Origin: Rhodanobacteraceae bacterium | Lineage (GTDB): Bacteria > Pseudomonadota > Gammaproteobacteria > Xanthomonadales > Rhodanobacteraceae | NCBI GenBank assembly: GCA_025928585.1 | Contig: JAICJG010000019.1 | Span: 1 to 32,547, forward strand | Direction: 5' to 3' | DNA: 32,547 nt | Shown: positions 1,470 through 25,023 of the stretch, one piece after another | How the letters are laid out: each line of letters begins with the position of its first letter | Position numbering within the stretch: position 1 is the stretch's first letter | The notes under the pieces: model-generated | Databases searched by the model: none | What the model was told of the DNA's origin: nothing | The model's input: only the letters and a program-made list of their open reading frames with translations | Made by a program: the position numbers and the translations under genes

Positions 1470-3557
1470 TCAGCTCCCGGCCAGCCGTCGCACATCGGTG
1501 ACGTTGGACAACGCAGCCACCTTGACGAGCAGCGCCGAAAGCTCCCCGTAGTCGTGCACCCGCAACGTGAACTGCATCGCCAGCTCACCGCGGTCGCGGT
1601 CGCTGTGGCTGCCGGATGCGACGATCCGCGCGCCGCTGTTGGCAATGGCATTGGTGACGTCGCGCTGCAGATCGCGACGATCGTAGCCCACCACCGAAAT
1701 GGCGACCTCATAGGCGCGATCCGGCGCGCTCTGCCAGCGGACTTCGATGGCGCGCTCGGGATTGCGCGCGCGCAACCGCGCCAGCGCCGGGCAGTCGGCA
1801 CGGTGCACGGTGATGCCGCGGCCGCGCGTGATGTAGCCCGTGACGTCGTCGCCCGGCAACGGCCGGCAGCAGCGCGCGAGGCTGGTCAGCAGATTGCCGA
1901 TCCCCTCGACCGTGAGCGCCCCGGGCTTGCCGGGTTCGCGAGGCAGGCGGGCTGGCGGGGGCGCAGCGGCCGCCGGCGGCGACTGCGCCTCCAGCATTGC
2001 CCGCGTCAACTGGGCGATGCCGACTTCGCCGAGGGCCAAGGCGACCAGCAGGTCATCGCGTCCCTTGCGGCCGAGCTTCGCCGGCAGGCGATCCAGCACC
2101 TCGTCCGGCAACGCCAGGCGGCGCGCCTCGCGCTCGAGGATCTGCCGGCCCGCCGCGAGATTGTCCGCGAGATCCTCGTGCCGAAACCACGCCCGCACCT
2201 TGCCGCGCGCGCTGGCGGTGCTCAGATAGCCGTGCTGCAGGGACAGCCAGTCGCGGCTGGGCGCGGGCTCGCGCGCGGTCAGGATCTCGACCCGATCGCC
2301 GCTCTTCGGCTGATGCGTCAGCGGCACGATCCGGCCGTTGACCTTGGCGCCCCGGCAACGGTGCCCGACCATGGTGTGCACGTGGTAGGCGAAATCGAGC
2401 ACCGTTGCGCCGGCCTGCAGGTCGATCACCTCGCCTTTCGGCGTCAGCAGATAGACGCGATCCTCGGCGAGTTCCGCGCGCAGCTCGGCGAGCAGCGCGC
2501 CGTCGTCCTCGCCTTCCAGCAGCTTGCGCATCCATGCGACGCGGGCCTGGTACGCGGCGTCGCCTGCGCCGCCCTCCTTGTACTTCCAGTGCGCGGCGAC
2601 GCCGAGTTCGGCACCCCGGTGCATCTCCTCCGTACGGATCTGCACCTCCAGCGTCTTGCCTTCCGGGCCGATCACCGCGGTGTGCAGCGAACGGTAATCG
2701 TTGCCCTTGGGGTGCGCGATGTAGTCGTCGAATTCATGCGGGATGATCGGCCACAACCCGTGCACGATGCCGAGCACCGCGTAGCACTCGGAGAGGCTTC
2801 CGGTCAGGACCCTGAGCGCGCGGATGTCGTACAGCTCGCCGAAGCCGACGCCCTTGCGTTGCATCTTCTTCCAGATCGAGTAGATGTGCTTGGCGCGCCC
2901 CTGCACCGTCGCCGTGATGCCGTGCTCGGCGAGCGCGGTGCGCAGGTCGGCGACGCAGCGTTCGATCCAGGCCTCGCGATCGGCGCGCCGCTCGGCCAGC
3001 AACCTCGCGATGCGGTGGTACACCTCCGGCTCCAGGTAACGGAACGCGAGGTCCTCGAGTTCCCATTTCCATTGCCCGATGCCCAACCGGTTGGCGAGCG
3101 GCGCGTGGATATCCCGGGTACGCCGCGCCAACTCGCGGCGCTCTGCGTCCGGGAGGGCCGCGGCCGCACGCAGCTCCGCCAGCTGGCGCGAAAGCAGCAG
3201 GTACACCACCCGCAGGTCACGGATGATCGCGAGCAACAGCCGGCGCAATCCCTCGTTCCCGCCCTTGCCGTCGCGCTCGGCATGCAGCGCCCACACCTGC
3301 TCGGCCTGCTGCTGGCCTTCGACCAGTCTGCGCACCGCCGGCGATATGCGCTGCATCGCATCGAGCCACCCCGGCGGTCGCGCACGGGCGATCGCATACC
3401 ACGCGGCCGCAAGACGGGTTTCGTCGTCGCAGCCCAGGTCCCGCAGCAGCGTGTCCGTCTGCGTCCACAACGCGTGATCGGTGGACGGCAACCCATCGAC
3501 CGGAACCGCACGCGCGGGTTCAGACGGTGCGCCAGCGTGGGAAGTCATGGATCGCAT
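1470..3557 (-). CDS. relA: RelA, ribosome-associated (p)ppGpp synthetase
   Basis: Transfers pyrophosphate from ATP to GTP/GDP when uncharged tRNA is on the ribosome, producing the stringent-response alarmone. Domains in order: a degenerate HD-like region without His-Asp pairs, a synthetase domain (GRAKHIYSIWKKMQRK; EFDDYIAHPKGNDYRSLHT), a TGS domain (VYLLTPKGEVIDLQAGATV), the zinc-finger/helical region (EGIGNLLTSLARCCRPLPGD) and a C-terminal ACT domain ending DVRRLAGS. The acidic EFDD motif is the RelA (EXDD) type, not the RXKD type of bifunctional SpoT/Rel, so it should be synthesis-only. The ORF opens at 3665, but its first residues overlap the divergent promoter region. ATG 3557 (about 695 aa) or ATG 3548 fits E. 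coli RelA; neither has a clear Shine-Dalgarno, so the start is uncertain. Confidence 0.96.
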   Translation of the reverse strand: MRSMTSHAGAPSEPARAVPVDGLPSTDHALWTQTDTLLRDLGCDDETRLAAAWYAIARARPPGWLDAMQRISPAVRRLVEGQQQAEQVWALHAERDGKGGNEGLRRLLLAIIRDLRVVYLLLSRQLAELRAAAALPDAERRELARRTRDIHAPLANRLGIGQWKWELEDLAFRYLEPEVYHRIARLLAERRADREAWIERCVADLRTALAEHGITATVQGRAKHIYSIWKKMQRKGVGFGELYDIRALRVLTGSLSECYAVLGIVHGLWPIIPHEFDDYIAHPKGNDYRSLHTAVIGPEGKTLEVQIRTEEMHRGAELGVAAHWKYKEGGAGDAAYQARVAWMRKLLEGEDDGALLAELRAELAEDRVYLLTPKGEVIDLQAGATVLDFAYHVHTMVGHRCRGAKVNGRIVPLTHQPKSGDRVEILTAREPAPSRDWLSLQHGYLSTASARGKVRAWFRHEDLADNLAAGRQILEREARRLALPDEVLDRLPAKLGRKGRDDLLVALALGEVGIAQLTRAMLEAQSPPAAAAPPPARLPREPGKPGALTVEGIGNLLTSLARCCRPLPGDDVTGYITRGRGITVHRADCPALARLRARNPERAIEVRWQSAPDRAYEVAISVVGYDRRDLQRDVTNAIANSGARIVASGSHSDRDRGELAMQFTLRVHDYGELSALLVKVAALSNVTDVRRLAGS

Positions 3558-13068: not shown

Positions 13069-13286
13069 TTGCACTTCCCTCCGCCGCGACGGCGTGGCGC
13101 CGGAGCGCGGTCCGTCCGGGCTTCGCGAAACCTCCGGGGCGAACCCGGCCTCGCTCCCTCGAAACGAACTCGTACGGAATCTCCGTTCATCCCGGATTCA
13201 AAAGTCATGCCCGGTCGCGTTCATATTCGGGCTGCTAATGTTCAAGCCGCATCGCAACCGGCACTGAAGCCAAAGGATTGACGGAC

Positions 13287-13529
13287 ATGACCGCGTTTCC
13301 TGCATCTGCGCGCATCCACCAGAGGCCGCCCATCGGCCTGGATCTCATCAAGATCGAATGGCCGAACATCGCCGGCAGGATGAGGCGGCGTTGGCGCAAA
13401 CTGACTGCCGACGACGTGGCCTATGCGGGCGGTAGTGCCGAATACCTCGCGGCGGTGGTGCAGGACCGCTACGGGGTCGACCGGCGCGAGGCCCTGTTGC
13501 AGGTATACGAATTCGAAAGCGAGCTGTAG
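13287..13529 (+). CDS. CsbD-like general stress protein
   Basis: An 80-aa protein with the CsbD-like pattern: IKIEWPNIAGRMRRRWRKLTADDVAYAGGSAEYLAAVVQDRYGVDRREALLQVYEFE. CsbD-family proteins are small, helical, very common and induced by general stress; their biochemical role is unknown. ATG 13287 is preferred over the in-frame TTG at 13278 because AAAGGA lies 9 nt upstream. The usual N-terminal MNxDxxxGxWK is replaced by a longer Pro-containing lead (MTAFPASARIHQRPPIGLD). It is followed directly by a strongly structured segment and then by a DUF1328 gene, another small stress-related family. Confidence 0.8.
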   Translation: MTAFPASARIHQRPPIGLDLIKIEWPNIAGRMRRRWRKLTADDVAYAGGSAEYLAAVVQDRYGVDRREALLQVYEFESEL

Positions 13530-13553
13530 GAAGACTTGCGCCCGGTTGGCAGG

Positions 13554-13744
13554 AAAACCGCTCCGGGCCAATTCGACGCGCCGCGTGGAGCGCGCTTCCC
13601 CAGCGGTTTTGCGGCTCAAGGAAGGAGCCGCATCCGGACCGAACCCGTTCCCCCTGCGGGTTCGGTCCGGAAGTCCCGCCACGTCGACCACGCCGCGGGA
13701 CCCGTCCGGACAAGCCACGGAAGCGCTTGTCCGGATGTTTTTTT
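13554..13744 (+). ncRNA. Candidate structured small RNA or 3'UTR RNA with intrinsic terminator
   Basis: Five contiguous stem-loops were read directly: (1) AAAACCGCT/AGCGGTTTT (13554-13562 with 13602-13610) enclosing CGCGC-CGCGTGGA-GCGCG; (2) GCGGCTC-AAGGAAG-GAGCCGC (13611-13631); (3) a perfect 14-bp stem CCGGACCGAACCCG with its complement around a 9-nt loop (13634-13670); (4) GTCCCGC/GCGGGAC (13673-13701); (5) an 11-bp terminator stem followed by TG and seven Ts. Three loops contain GGA. It starts 24 nt after the CsbD-like stop, so it may be a 3'UTR-derived RNA or an independent gene. No known RNA family is recognised. Confidence 0.5.
13705..13744 (+). terminator. Strong Rho-independent terminator
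   Basis: TCCGGACAAGC-CACGGAAGC-GCTTGTCCGGA (perfect 11-bp stem, 9-nt loop), then TG and TTTTTTT. It is the clearest intrinsic terminator in the window. It ends the CsbD-like transcript and the structured segment before the DUF1328 gene. Confidence 0.88.
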
Positions 13745-13824
13745 GAAGGCGGCGGCCCCGCCATGGTGGCAATAAGCGTGTACCCCGTGAACCGAACGCA
13801 CCGATACGTCGCAAGGAGAGCGCC

Positions 13825-13986
13825 ATGCTGTATTACGCCATCGTCTTCCTCATCATCGCGTTGATCGCCGGGTTCTTCGGATTCTTCGGCGTCGCCGGCC
13901 TCGCGGCAGGGATCGCGAAGATCCTGTTCGTGATCTTCATCATCCTGTTCATCGTCTCGCTGATCTTCGGGCGCAGGCGCGTGTGA
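13825..13986 (+). CDS. DUF1328 / YtjA-family small membrane protein
   Basis: Too short for the ORF track, so translated by hand. The 53-aa product [20 protein letters not shown] ... FGRRRV has two hydrophobic helices joined by a Gly/Ala-rich turn ([11 protein letters not shown]), the exact layout of the DUF1328 (YtjA) family of inner-membrane peptides found across Proteobacteria. The Shine-Dalgarno AGGAG lies 6-7 nt before the ATG and is one of the best in the window. Function is unknown; homologues often sit beside CsbD-type stress genes. A hairpin follows the stop. Confidence 0.92.
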
Positions 13987-18439: not shown

Positions 18440-19204
18440 TCATTGCAACCCGGCCGGGATGTCCTGCAACTTGGCACGCGCGCGCTGGGCGGACTCGGAG
18501 CCGGGGTTGGCCTTGATCAGCGCCTGCAACGTCCCGCGTGCAGCCGCGTATTGCTTGAGCGCGATCTGGCAGTCGGCGATCCGCAGCTGCGCTTCGTCGG
18601 CTTTGGGACTGCTCGGGTATTTCCGCAGCACCGTCTGGAACGCGGCGAGCGCGGGCTTGTAGTTCTGGGTGACCTGATACGAACTACCCAGCCAGTAGTA
18701 TGCGTTGGAGACCAGCGGGCTTTGCGGGTACTTGTCGATGAACGCGCGGAACCCGCGGGCCGACTCGACGTAGTTGCCGTCGCGCAACGACTTGAAAGCG
18801 CCCTCGTAGGCGGCCTGTGCAGCCGCCTCATCGGCCGCCGACAGCGGCTGCGTCGGGGTAGCCCCCGGTGCAGGTGCGGCGCCTCCCTGCGGCGCGGCGG
18901 CCGGCGGTGCGCTTTCCGCCGTTGCGGGCTGCGCGTGCTCCAGCTTGCCGACCCGGGAATCGAGATCGACGTACTGCTCCTTGTTGGCCTGCTTGAGCTG
19001 CTGCAACTGGTGCTGCAACTCCTCGATCTGGCCCTGCATCTGCCGCATCTGCGCCTGCAGGCTCTGGATCTGGTTGACCAGGACCAGGCTGTTCGAAGGC
19101 TGCGGCGCCACAGCCTGCGCCCGCGCCTGCGGCGGACAAAACGCCGCAACGATCATGGCCGCCGAAGCGGCCATGACCATCGCAGGCTTGCGCAGTCCGC
19201 GCAT
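18440..19204 (-). CDS. cpoB: CpoB (YbgF), Tol-Pal-associated division coordinator
   Basis: This periplasmic protein couples peptidoglycan synthesis (PBP1B-LpoB) to Tol-driven outer-membrane constriction in E. coli. The signal peptide is [27 protein letters not shown]. Next comes an N-terminal coiled coil ([30 protein letters not shown]), then an Ala/Pro linker, then about three TPRs ([65 protein letters not shown]). Start is ATG 19204; a GTG at 19222 is an alternative. The gap to pal is about 23 nt. 254 aa is normal for the family. Confidence 0.95.
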
Positions 19205-19227
19205 CCGTACTGCGCTCGTCACACCGC

Positions 19228-19737
19228 TTACTCGGTGGTGTAGACGATGTTGACGCGGCGGTTCTGGTGCCAGCAACCCTCGTTGTGCTCACGGCACACC
19301 GGGCGTTCCTCGCCGTAGCTCACGACCTTGATCTGGTCGGAAGACGCCCCGGCGGCTTCCAGCGCGCTGGCGACGGCGTTGCCGCGGCGCTCACCGAGAC
19401 CGAGGTTGTATTCGCGCGTGCCGCGCTCGTCGGTGTTGCCTTCCAGCGTCATCCGCGCCATCGGGCGGTCACGCAGGTATTTGGCGTGGCAGGCGATGAT
19501 CTGCTCGAATTCCGGCTTGATGTTGCTCTTGTCGAAATCGAAGTAGACCACGCGGGTGCGCAGGCATTCGTTGCTCTGCAGGTCAGCCGGGGTGAAGGCG
19601 CCTTCGGTGGTGGCCGGGGCGGTGGTGGTGGTCGGCTGCTCAGGCGGCGGCTGGGGCTTGACCTCCTGCTTCTTTGCGCAGGCCGCCGCGGCCAGGCAGA
19701 AAAGCGCAATCACGGAGACGCGAACGGTTGCGTTCAT
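19228..19737 (-). CDS. pal: Peptidoglycan-associated lipoprotein Pal
   Basis: Outer-membrane lipoprotein that binds peptidoglycan and TolB. The lipobox is in VSVIALFCLAAAACAKK, with cleavage before the Cys in AAAC. A Pro/Thr-rich linker follows, then an OmpA-like domain (VVYFDFDKSNIKPEFEQII; LEGNTDERGTREYNLGLGERRGNAV; QIKVVSYGEERP; NRRVNIVYTTE) with the peptidoglycan-contacting Asp/Arg in NTDERGTREYN. ATG 19737 (169 aa) is used: AAGGA is 11 nt upstream, and the longer ORF to 19788 only adds leader sequence. Two added cysteines (CREHNEGCWH) could form a disulfide. Confidence 0.97.
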   Translation of the reverse strand: MNATVRVSVIALFCLAAAACAKKQEVKPQPPPEQPTTTTAPATTEGAFTPADLQSNECLRTRVVYFDFDKSNIKPEFEQIIACHAKYLRDRPMARMTLEGNTDERGTREYNLGLGERRGNAVASALEAAGASSDQIKVVSYGEERPVCREHNEGCWHQNRRVNIVYTTE

Positions 19738-19824: not shown

Positions 19825-21138
19825 TCAAGGGTTCCGGTACGGACCCCAGGCGGGCGATCGCACGTCCCCATCGCCCAGCACCAGCCGCTGGCGAACGCGG
19901 CCATCGGCCGACACCGCGTAAAGAACGCCGCGGGGCCCTTCGGTGGCTGCGTAGAGGAGCATGCTGGCGTTGGGTGCCCAGCTGGGAGATTCGTCCAGAT
20001 TGCCCGGCGAAACGAACGTCTCCTGGCCGCCGAGGGAGCGGTCCATCACGGCAATACGATACACGTTTCCGTTGCCCTCTACCATCGCGAGCTTGTTGCC
20101 GTCATAGCCGATCGAGACGTCGCCGTTCCACTGCCCCTGGAAAGTGATGCGCTGGGGCGTGCCGCCGGCACTGGGAATCTGGTAGAGCTGCGGCTTGCCG
20201 GAACGGTCGGAGGTGAACACGATGTTCTGGCCGTCGGGCGTCCACGAGGGCTCGGTGTCGATCGCCAGGTTATGGGTGAGCCGGGTCAGTGCACCGGTGG
20301 CGAGGTCGAGTGTATAGATCTCCGGATTGCCCTGGAAGGACAGGCTCACGGCGAGCCGTTTGCCGTCCGGCGAGAAGCGCGGCGCGCCGTTGATCCCGGG
20401 TCGCGCGGACACGACCCGGCGCGCGCCGGTGGAGACGTTCTGGATGTAGATCGCCGAATCGCCGCTCTCGAACGAGACGTAGGCTAGCTCGTTGCCGTCC
20501 GGCGACCACGCGGGCGACAACAGCGCCTCGTGCGAGTGCACCACCGTCTGCGGGTTGTAGCCGTCGGAATCGGCGACCACCAGCGCGTATTGGGCATTCT
20601 TGCCGAGGCCCACCATGGTCACGTAGGCGATGCGGGTGTCGAACGCGCCGCGCACGCCGATGATCTTCTGGTAGATCTGGTCGGCGATCTGGTGCGCCAC
20701 CCGGCGCAGGTCGCTGCCCTGGCCGGTGATCGACAGCGCCAGCAGTTGCTGCTGCTTGTTGACGTCCCACAGCTCGAATTCGGCGTGCAGCACGCCGCCG
20801 TCATAGGACGTGCGGCCGACCACGATGTAGTCCTGCTTCAACTGCTGCCAGGTCGCGAACTTGATCTGCGAGCCGGTGGTGGGCGACTCGACAATTTCGC
20901 TGGTCGGCAAGGTGTGGAACTTGCCGCAGCGATCGAGATCCATGCTGACGATCTGGGCGATGTCGACGGGCGATGCCGGTCCGGAGCCCTGCTGCCCGAA
21001 CGGCACCACGGTGACCGGGATCGCCGAGGGCACGCCGTTGACGATCTGGACGGTGAGGGCCTGCGCGCCCGCCTGGACCGCGAACAGGGCGGCGCAGGCG
21101 GTCACGACGAGTGCAAGCAGGAATTTCCGGATTGGCAT
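19825..21138 (-). CDS. tolB: TolB, periplasmic beta-propeller of Tol-Pal
   Basis: TolB shuttles between TolA and Pal to recycle Pal to division sites. The signal peptide is RKFLLALVVTACAALFAVQAGAQA. The N-terminal domain (VPFGQQGSG..SPVDIAQIVSMDLDRCGKF) is followed by a six-bladed propeller with the repeats SPAWSPDGNELAYVSFESG, APRFSPDGKRLAVSLSFQG, EPSWTPDGQNIVFTSDRSG and ESPSWAPNASMLLY. ATG 21138 is chosen because GAGGAAG lies about 9 nt upstream; ATG 21156, overlapping the tolA stop, adds six residues (MRKRRT). Length of about 437 aa agrees with E. coli TolB (430). Confidence 0.97.
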   Translation of the reverse strand: MPIRKFLLALVVTACAALFAVQAGAQALTVQIVNGVPSAIPVTVVPFGQQGSGPASPVDIAQIVSMDLDRCGKFHTLPTSEIVESPTTGSQIKFATWQQLKQDYIVVGRTSYDGGVLHAEFELWDVNKQQQLLALSITGQGSDLRRVAHQIADQIYQKIIGVRGAFDTRIAYVTMVGLGKNAQYALVVADSDGYNPQTVVHSHEALLSPAWSPDGNELAYVSFESGDSAIYIQNVSTGARRVVSARPGINGAPRFSPDGKRLAVSLSFQGNPEIYTLDLATGALTRLTHNLAIDTEPSWTPDGQNIVFTSDRSGKPQLYQIPSAGGTPQRITFQGQWNGDVSIGYDGNKLAMVEGNGNVYRIAVMDRSLGGQETFVSPGNLDESPSWAPNASMLLYAATEGPRGVLYAVSADGRVRQRLVLGDGDVRSPAWGPYRNP

Positions 21139-23448: not shown

Positions 23449-23901
23449 TCAGGCCGGCCGGCCCTGCTGGATCGTGGCCGCAATCGCGGGCGGAATCCGG
23501 CGAGGCACGAAAGCATCCCCGTCGACGCAGGCGACCCGCACCTGCGCCCGCGCAAGCGTAACGCCGTCGGCGACCCGTTGCACGGCTTGCGCGATGTCGA
23601 TGCTGGCCGCGCGCAGGCGCACCACGCGCACGCTCGCATCCAGTTCGTCGTCGAGGCGGGCCGGCTTGTCATAGGCGATTTCGAGTCCACGCACCACGAA
23701 CACCACTCCGTGCGAGCGGCGGATGGCATCCTGGCCGAGTCCGATTGCGCGCATCCATTCGCTGCGCGCGCGTTCCAGAAACCGCAGGTAACCCGCGTGG
23801 TACACCACGCCACCTGCGTCGGTATCTTCCCAGTAAACCCGTATCCGCCAACTGAACGAAAAACCGGGGTCGACGAAACCGGGGTCAGAGTCACTTTTCA
23901 T
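23449..23901 (-). CDS. ybgC: YbgC, Tol-Pal-cluster acyl-CoA thioesterase
   Basis: Hot-dog-fold thioesterase, first gene of the tol-pal cluster. Residues IRVYWEDTDAGGVVYHAGYLRFLERARSEWMRAIG contain the catalytic Asp (EDTDAGG) and match E. coli YbgC. The 150-aa product starts at ATG 23901. No other in-frame ATG, GTG or TTG lies between that ATG and the conserved region; the only earlier candidate in the track is a TTG at 23925. As a result the first residues (MKSDSDPGFVDPGF) are coded by a REP-like repeat, and the protein has about a dozen more N-terminal residues than E. coli YbgC. Some of these residues lie in a duplicated GGGGTC segment. Confidence 0.94.
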   Translation of the reverse strand: MKSDSDPGFVDPGFSFSWRIRVYWEDTDAGGVVYHAGYLRFLERARSEWMRAIGLGQDAIRRSHGVVFVVRGLEIAYDKPARLDDELDASVRVVRLRAASIDIAQAVQRVADGVTLARAQVRVACVDGDAFVPRRIPPAIAATIQQGRPA

Positions 23902-23972
23902 GACATTCCGATAATGCGCAAGCAAACGGAAAGTGACTCTGACCCCGTTTCGGAAAAGTCACTCCGACCCCC
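23881..23972. repeat. REP-like inverted repeat cluster between ruvB and ybgC
   Basis: GGGGTCAGAGTCACTTT (23881-23897) and AAAGTGACTCTGACCCC (23930-23946) are a perfect 17-nt inverted pair separated by 32 nt. A third copy, AAAGTCACTCCGACCCC (23955-23971), matches at 15 of 17 positions. A partial direct repeat, AAACCGGGGTC-GACG-AAACCGGGGTC, adjoins it. This GGGGTCAGAGT-type sequence is, as I recall, common in proteobacterial genomes beside REP-associated tyrosine transposases (TnpA-REP); no such transposase is in the window. It codes for both the ybgC start and the ruvB stop. Confidence 0.75.
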
Positions 23973-25023
23973 TTTTGGCGGAGGACCCCGTGTCCTCGAA
24001 CAGGTTCAGCTCGGGCGAGGCGCTGCGGGGCGGCTTCAGACCGAAATGCCGCCAGGCCTTGGCGGTGGCGATCCGCCCGCGCGCGGTGCGCGCGATCAGT
24101 CCCTGCTGGATCAGGTACGGCTCCAGCACGTCCTCGATGGTGTCGCGGTCCTCGGCCAGCGCCGCGGCGAGCGACTCGACACCGACCGGGCCGCCCTCGA
24201 ACTGCTCCAGCACCAGCCGCAGCAGCCGCCGGTCGAGCTCGTCGTAGCCGCCGGCATCGACCTTCAGCATGTCGAGCGCCGCCGAGGCTGTCGTGCGCGT
24301 GATCTGCCCGCCCGCACGCACCTCGGCGTAATCGCGCACCCGCCGCAGCAGGCGGTTGGCGATGCGGGGCGTGCCGCGCGCGCGCCGCGCGATCTCGTCG
24401 GCGCCCTCCGCGTCGCAGGCGATGCCGAGGATCCGCGCCGCCCGCACGACGATCGCGGCCAGCTCGGGAACCGTGTAGAACTCCAGCCGGTGCACGATGC
24501 CGAAGCGGTCGCGCAAAGGACTGGTAAGCATGCCCGCGCGGGTGGTCGCGCCTACCAGCGTGAAACACGGCAGGTCCAGCTTGATCGAACGCGCGGCCGG
24601 GCCTTCGCCCAGCATGATGTCGATCTGGAAGTCCTCGAGCGCGGGGTAGAGCACTTCCTCGACCACCGGCGAAAGCCGATGGATCTCGTCGATGAACAGG
24701 ACGTCGCGCGGTTGCAGGTTGGTCAGCAGCGCCGCAAGATCGCCCGCGCGTTCCAGCACCGGTCCCGAGGTGCTGCGAAGGTTCACGCCCAGCTCGTTGG
24801 CGATCACGTGGGAAAGGGTGGTCTTGCCGAGCCCCGGAGGCCCGAACACCAGCACGTGGTCGAGCGCGTCACCCCGTTTGCGCGCGGCCTCGATCGACAG
24901 CGACAACTGCTCGCGAAGCGACGCCTGCCCCACGTACTCGGCGAGCGAACGCGGCCGGATGCTGGCGTCCAGCACTTCCTCGTCACGGGTTTCGGCGGCG
25001 TCCACGACGCGGGCTCCACTCAT
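23959..25023 (-). CDS. ruvB: RuvB, Holliday-junction branch-migration helicase
   Basis: Hexameric AAA+ motor that works with RuvA and RuvC. Walker [13 protein letters not shown], Walker [13 protein letters not shown], sensor GATTRAG, and arginine-finger region [16 protein letters not shown]. The C-terminal winged helix includes [19 protein letters not shown]. The conserved part ends near PELNLFED; after that, [10 protein letters not shown] and the stop codon come partly from the third REP-like copy (GGG TCG GAG TGA). Start is ATG 25023 (354 aa). The longer ORF to 25299 runs into kup. A -10-like CATAAT ends 6 nt before this ATG. Confidence 0.97.

Follow-up and report, generated by a model that had tools for sequence, protein, structure and literature searches.

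What are five back-to-back hairpins doing between two small-protein genes, and are they more than the end of a transcript? The question arises at positions 13554–13744 of the window, by which we mean the whole 32,547-nt stretch analysed, part of a Rhodanobacteraceae genome of 2.73 Mb in 183 contigs that is probably a MAG. About 25 nt upstream of the hairpin chain, and in the same sense, ends the gene for a csbD-like small protein (13287–13529, plus strand; ATG at 13287, with the ORF listed from TTG 13278), whose transcript we presume to be the host of the chain. Its match to Pfam CsbD (E = 7e-4, 19.9 bits) lies below the curated cut-off of 40, and it has homologues in the genus. Downstream, 90 nt separate the last hairpin from the ATG (13825) of a gene for a DUF1328 small membrane protein (13825–13986, plus strand; Pfam DUF1328, E = 3.7e-14), which is preceded by AAGGAG at 13813–13818. 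The Salmonella proteins YjbJ (CsbD-like) and YtjA (DUF1328) are both among listed sigma-S-controlled small proteins (PMC5437024). A csbD–DUF1328 query found matches in 25 of 41 relatives, and DUF1328 is present in 14 of the 16 genus genomes.

Direct search for stems located the five hairpins SLa–SLe (S1–S5), all read on the plus strand. The outer 9-bp stem of SLa (13554–13610; 13554–13562 paired with 13602–13610) encloses a 5-bp stem (13577–13594) and the sequence CUUCCCC (13595–13601). SLb (13610–13632) has 8 bp, or 7 without the base that it shares with S1, and presents the loop C[AAGGAA]G (13618–13623), of the CsrA type ANGGAN. SLc (13633–13671) is a perfect 15-bp stem with the loop UUCCCCCUG (13648–13656), SLd (13673–13701) has an outer stem of 7 bp with inner pairs, and SLe (13704–13736; stem of 12–13 bp) carries C[ACGGAA]G (13717–13722), again of the ANGGAN type. 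A U7 tract (13738–13744, plus strand) follows and by inspection forms with SLe an intrinsic terminator, which is not conserved in most relatives. The earlier note had described five stems of 7–14 bp, the first enclosing a 5-bp stem; each is present where it had been placed, and S3, at 15 bp, is one longer.

Folding of the segment 13554–13744 gives a minimum free energy of −125.2 kcal/mol; 200 dinucleotide shuffles give −97.2 ± 5.3, none of them folding as well (z = −5.3). The chain region takes ranks 1 and 3 among 1618 GC-corrected 190-nt windows from both strands of this contig. The contig's strongest GC-corrected folding outliers also include 19000–19270 (minus strand) and 23760–24070 (both strands). 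A simple terminator scanner reported no terminator at the chain, its loop limit of 8 nt excluding S5. No sigma-70 promoter was found for the chain, and the single match to the GacA box TGTAAG-N6-CTTACA in the window, at 20333 with three mismatches, corresponds to chance expectation. ORFs that cross the region (13423–13746, plus strand; 13242–13826, minus strand) were dismissed because indels among relatives are not multiples of three. Kissing of the C-rich SLa loops with the SLb loops was also rejected, the complementarity being missing, by inspection, in several loci.

The same chain design recurs upstream of DUF1328 at 15 loci in the genus, always in the sense orientation and with divergent stem sequences; in most genus genomes it adjoins DUF1328 at the same position. 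The shared order is SLa (with a C-rich loop in many), a short SLb with ANGGA, a long SLc (C-rich loop in many), SLd, and an SLe of 12–14 bp with ANGGA. The ANGGA loop is found in SLb at 14 of 15 loci and in SLe at 14 of 15, against 2.3% of hairpins in shuffled sequence; the strings were picked by hand from related loci, so these counts are not independent trials, yet the stems vary while the loops stay constant. SLb is always closed as C[ANGGAN]G, the N of ANGGA takes all four bases across loci, and the SLb and SLe sites lie 93–101 nt apart. The C-rich loops of SLa (CUUCCCC) and SLc (UUCCCCCUG) recur in relatives and are possible anti-Shine–Dalgarno seeds.

RNAalifold, applied to 12 of the genus loci (in an MAFFT alignment that misplaces SLa), reports two-sided changes at 14 of 27 pairs; the earlier note had proposed a covariance analysis as a check. 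We regard a conserved structured RNA at the csbD–DUF1328 locus as well supported by these comparisons. The candidate new small RNA of the earlier note survives in this form, with compensatory changes, geometry, ANGGA loops and a DUF1328-adjacent position in its favour; a free transcript stays a prediction from sequence, and the word new has to be qualified, given an RsmW architecture and related dispersed repeats. The U tract is a local feature, with at least 5 U after S5 in 3 of 15 loci only. In 6 of the 15 loci S5 ends 31–49 nt before the DUF1328 start, so that the chain is probably read through there. Two chains follow CsbD with no DUF1328 within the retrieved flank (L160 and L161); a further chain, L163 of genome G010, likewise lacks DUF1328 in its retrieved flank.

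Proteins of the CsrA family, RsmE among them, bind hairpins in which the loop is the hexamer ANGGAN with any base at N (PMC7652899). The chain has what is generally expected of a CsrA/RsmA-binding RNA, at least two conserved ANGGAN hairpin loops; since its loops hold this docking motif, it is probably a CsrA-binding RNA. The window genome has one CsrA gene, and the protein contains L4 and R44, which are named as residues that matter for RsmE binding (PMC4950607). At gathering threshold, Rfam reports only tRNA in the window. When the chain region alone was compared with 4227 Rfam families under permissive filters, RsmW (RF02809) was the best by E-value, at 35.8 bits and E = 1.2e-4, a value that applies to this small search and a score that falls short of the gathering score of 52; the next-best family has E = 0.08. 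The alignment covers model positions 1–124, the full length, in the sense direction, and has GGA in the loop of the first hairpin and in that of the last, whereas the antisense strand of the chain region gives no RsmW match. A second copy in the window genome scores 43.1 bits, also below gathering. Among the candidates scored when 16 genus genomes were scanned with RsmW, which do not include the window copy, the top four all belong to the chain family (G000:C99, before another DUF1328; G010:C37; the DUF1328 locus of G014; G008:C45). Because the curated threshold is not reached, membership of the RsmW family is not established, and the chain is built like RsmW on paper.

The explanation we favour, and judge to be evenly balanced between right and wrong, is that the chain is a conserved RsmW-type CsrA/RsmA-binding RNA forming the 3′ portion of the transcript from the csbD-like gene. 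Given the observed structure, conservation, loop motif, sense orientation at the locus and CsrA gene, such an RNA might work as follows. The csbD-like transcript would carry the chain as its 3′ part, ending in this genome at SLe and U7, and would be processed to release it. CsrA would dock on the ANGGAN loops of SLb and SLe, about 93–101 nt apart and separated by SLc and SLd. On the model of RsmW and RsmU, expression of csbD could then yield a stable tail that titrates CsrA and couples the stress locus to the CsrA regulon.

The chain L163 in G010 was also the lead to a dispersed four-hairpin element. In an alignment of 16 dispersed copies (A2), paired cells amount to 95.5%, two-sided changes occur at 17 of 30 pairs, and the covariation score is 0.328, against 0.132 for shuffles and at most 0.08 for slid controls. 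A model built from dispersed copies only, with the window left out of training (R2), detects the element in every genus genome, with 1 to 73 copies each, and, across the host order, has matches in 69 of 300 genomes and 35 of 86 sampled genera. In the order-wide alignment (A3), 28 of 30 pairs show changes on both sides, a count biased upwards by fitting to the structure of the model. Members include L182, L183, L184, L189, L162 and L203 among others in the genus, and L241–L270 in the order; their first hairpin is nearly always C[ANGGAN]G. The full-length R2 match to the window chain scores 51.6 bits (E = 8e-16); in antisense, these helices give 13.1 bits. Other DUF1328 chains reach only about 11–27 bits, and among named DUF1328 loci from beyond the group only one genus MAG gives R2 a match, at 15 bits. 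That the window chain is homologous to the dispersed element is likely but not certain, because those other chains score low with R2 and the score is partly generic pairing.

Relative to neighbouring genes the dispersed copies are unbiased in strand (19 same/same, 17 opposite/opposite, 8 convergent and 4 divergent, from a crude gene caller, several of whose 'inside gene' calls are read-through of long open frames), and the loop may therefore act at the level of DNA. One subtype only has TIR-like ends, and the dispersed copies look like palindromic mobile DNA. Those that were scanned against Rfam give no match above gathering, and a 221-base dispersed copy used as query found no match in plasmid and phage collections; the family is apparently undescribed. 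Tandem arrays occur, with three copies at G037:C21:41789-42185 (period 133 bp) and two at G010:C50:27991-28286. Some copies lie in frame within genes, at the same place in a GcvT-like gene of two species and in an ABC transporter gene, each adding about 40 residues in the manner of Rickettsia palindromic elements (L190, ~1500–1630; L192, ~1460–1590; L251, 1501–1631). Many others lie between operon genes, for example at rpsM–rpsK, before ftsZ or beside a tRNA. The window's own genome (G000) holds a further chain between a BON-like gene (by eye) and DUF1328 (L164, 2526–2680), and two more copies in the sense direction just upstream of LptD-like and LpoA-like genes, named by eye from translation (L224, 1501–1630; L239, 1501–1626). 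In G008, a chain (L206, 119–251) lies upstream of an ElaB/DUF883-like gene (by eye), which like the BON-like gene is small and of stress type. SLe was also considered as a dispersed terminator hairpin and rejected, the pattern being rare and its matches in most genomes no more frequent than those of the reversed-pattern control. Weak matches of the model R1 were inspected singly, and several, found in coding sequence (for example, L096 at 3745 and 4074), were discarded; an R1 score of about 25 bits or less is therefore no evidence when taken alone.

As the U tract is unconserved and the dispersed copies have no strand bias, a cis-acting leader and a palindromic DNA repeat stay rivals to the RsmW-type reading. 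A leader or intercistronic region of DUF1328 would have CsrA on SLb, SLe and the AAGGAG Shine–Dalgarno sequence control read-through or translation, with no release of a sponge. The closeness of SLe to the DUF1328 ATG at 6 of the 15 loci, the missing U tract in most loci and a window Shine–Dalgarno that is itself ANGGA all fit such a leader, but chains without DUF1328 in their retrieved flanks (L160, L161 and L163) do not, and nor do the U7 after SLe and the 90 nt from there to the ATG in the window genome; we consider it rather unlikely. We also doubt a reading in which the chain stems from a mobile or repetitive multi-hairpin element that became fixed here long ago, with no RNA function at this site and with hairpins and loop that serve spread of the element, for example as folded single strands. 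This would explain why a model of dispersed copies matches the window, and it suits copies that are scattered with no strand preference, have TIR-like ends in one subtype, and are found here and there in tandem or, in some genes, in frame; against it, the DUF1328 chain is fixed in position, always sense, has ANGGA in SLe as well and keeps its spacing, and the window copy showed no TIR-like end. Decidedly improbable, in our estimate, is a wider account in which the repeats would be a distributed CsrA sponge and mobile CsrA sites, dozens per genome and located behind or between genes, of which the csbD–DUF1328 copy has become fixed and regulated, with Pseudomonas RsmW and gyrA RNA as distant relatives that share the design.

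Far less can be said for a base-pairing small RNA whose C-rich SLa and SLc loops would pair with G-rich ribosome-binding sites, leaving the GGA loops secondary: such loops do recur in both hairpins at several loci, but they are less constant than ANGGA and are missing from SLa in L046 and L035. Equally remote is the notion that the chain serves only as terminator and mRNA-stabilising 3′ end of csbD. SLe with U7 makes a good intrinsic terminator on inspection, but constant loops, fixed spacing and a chain conserved throughout are more than a terminator calls for, much as the earlier note argued when it held that five stems exceed what one needs, and the U tract is not conserved.

An RsmW-type RNA at the end of the csbD-like transcript thus remains our preferred reading. 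Tied to stress genes, a conserved RsmW-like RNA is a directly testable candidate for CsrA titration in part of the host order, from which hardly any RNAs of this kind are known; the interest of the chain lies there and in a repeat family that has the same loop. That family, with its near-constant CsrA-type loop and strong covariation, would be relevant to small RNA annotation and to work on mobile palindromes.

Among known systems, RsmW of Pseudomonas aeruginosa, an RsmA-binding RNA from the 3′ UTR of a gene for a 74-residue protein (PMC4950607), shares with the chain its hairpin order, GGA loops on the two end hairpins, and U after the last hairpin. The chain differs in its unrelated host gene, its extra 5′ stem SLa, a score of 35.8 against the gathering 52, and CsrA binding that is predicted. 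RsmU (sRX061) of Xanthomonas campestris, processed from a 3′ UTR and binding RsmA, with GGA motifs (PMC7694677), is the only RsmA-sequestering RNA found for the host order in the literature searched. It comes from the same bacterial order as the chain and resembles it, by description and not by sequence, in 3′ UTR linkage and GGA motifs; its host gene is comEA where that of the chain is csbD. RsmU still bound RsmA and still functioned after all four of its GGA motifs had been changed (PMC7694677), and GGA loops alone are therefore no proof of mechanism. CsrB/CsrC and RsmX/Y/Z likewise have several GGA hairpin loops, presumed to titrate CsrA/RsmA; their Rfam models have no match in the window at gathering, or in the chain region at E ≤ 10. 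Gac-controlled RsmX/Y/Z have a GacA box, whereas none was found for the chain, and Xanthomonas genomes are reported to be without CsrB/CsrC homologues (PMC7286519). The full gyrA RNA model (RF01740) is matched by SLd–SLe of three dispersed copies (L241, L245 and L247; ~1495–1577, minus strand) at 27–35 bits, below the gathering score of 45, and has no match in the chain region at E ≤ 10. The dispersed repeats themselves recall REP and ERIC-like sequences, Rickettsia palindromic elements and MITEs in their many copies, palindromic build, TIR-like ends (in one subtype) and occasional in-frame position within genes (background in PMC3733652), but they are chains of about 130–200 bp with four to five different hairpins and a near-constant C[ANGGAN]G loop. 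The window chain departs from such palindromic elements, and from the dispersed copies, in its conserved position, its sense-only orientation and its ANGGA in both SLb and SLe.
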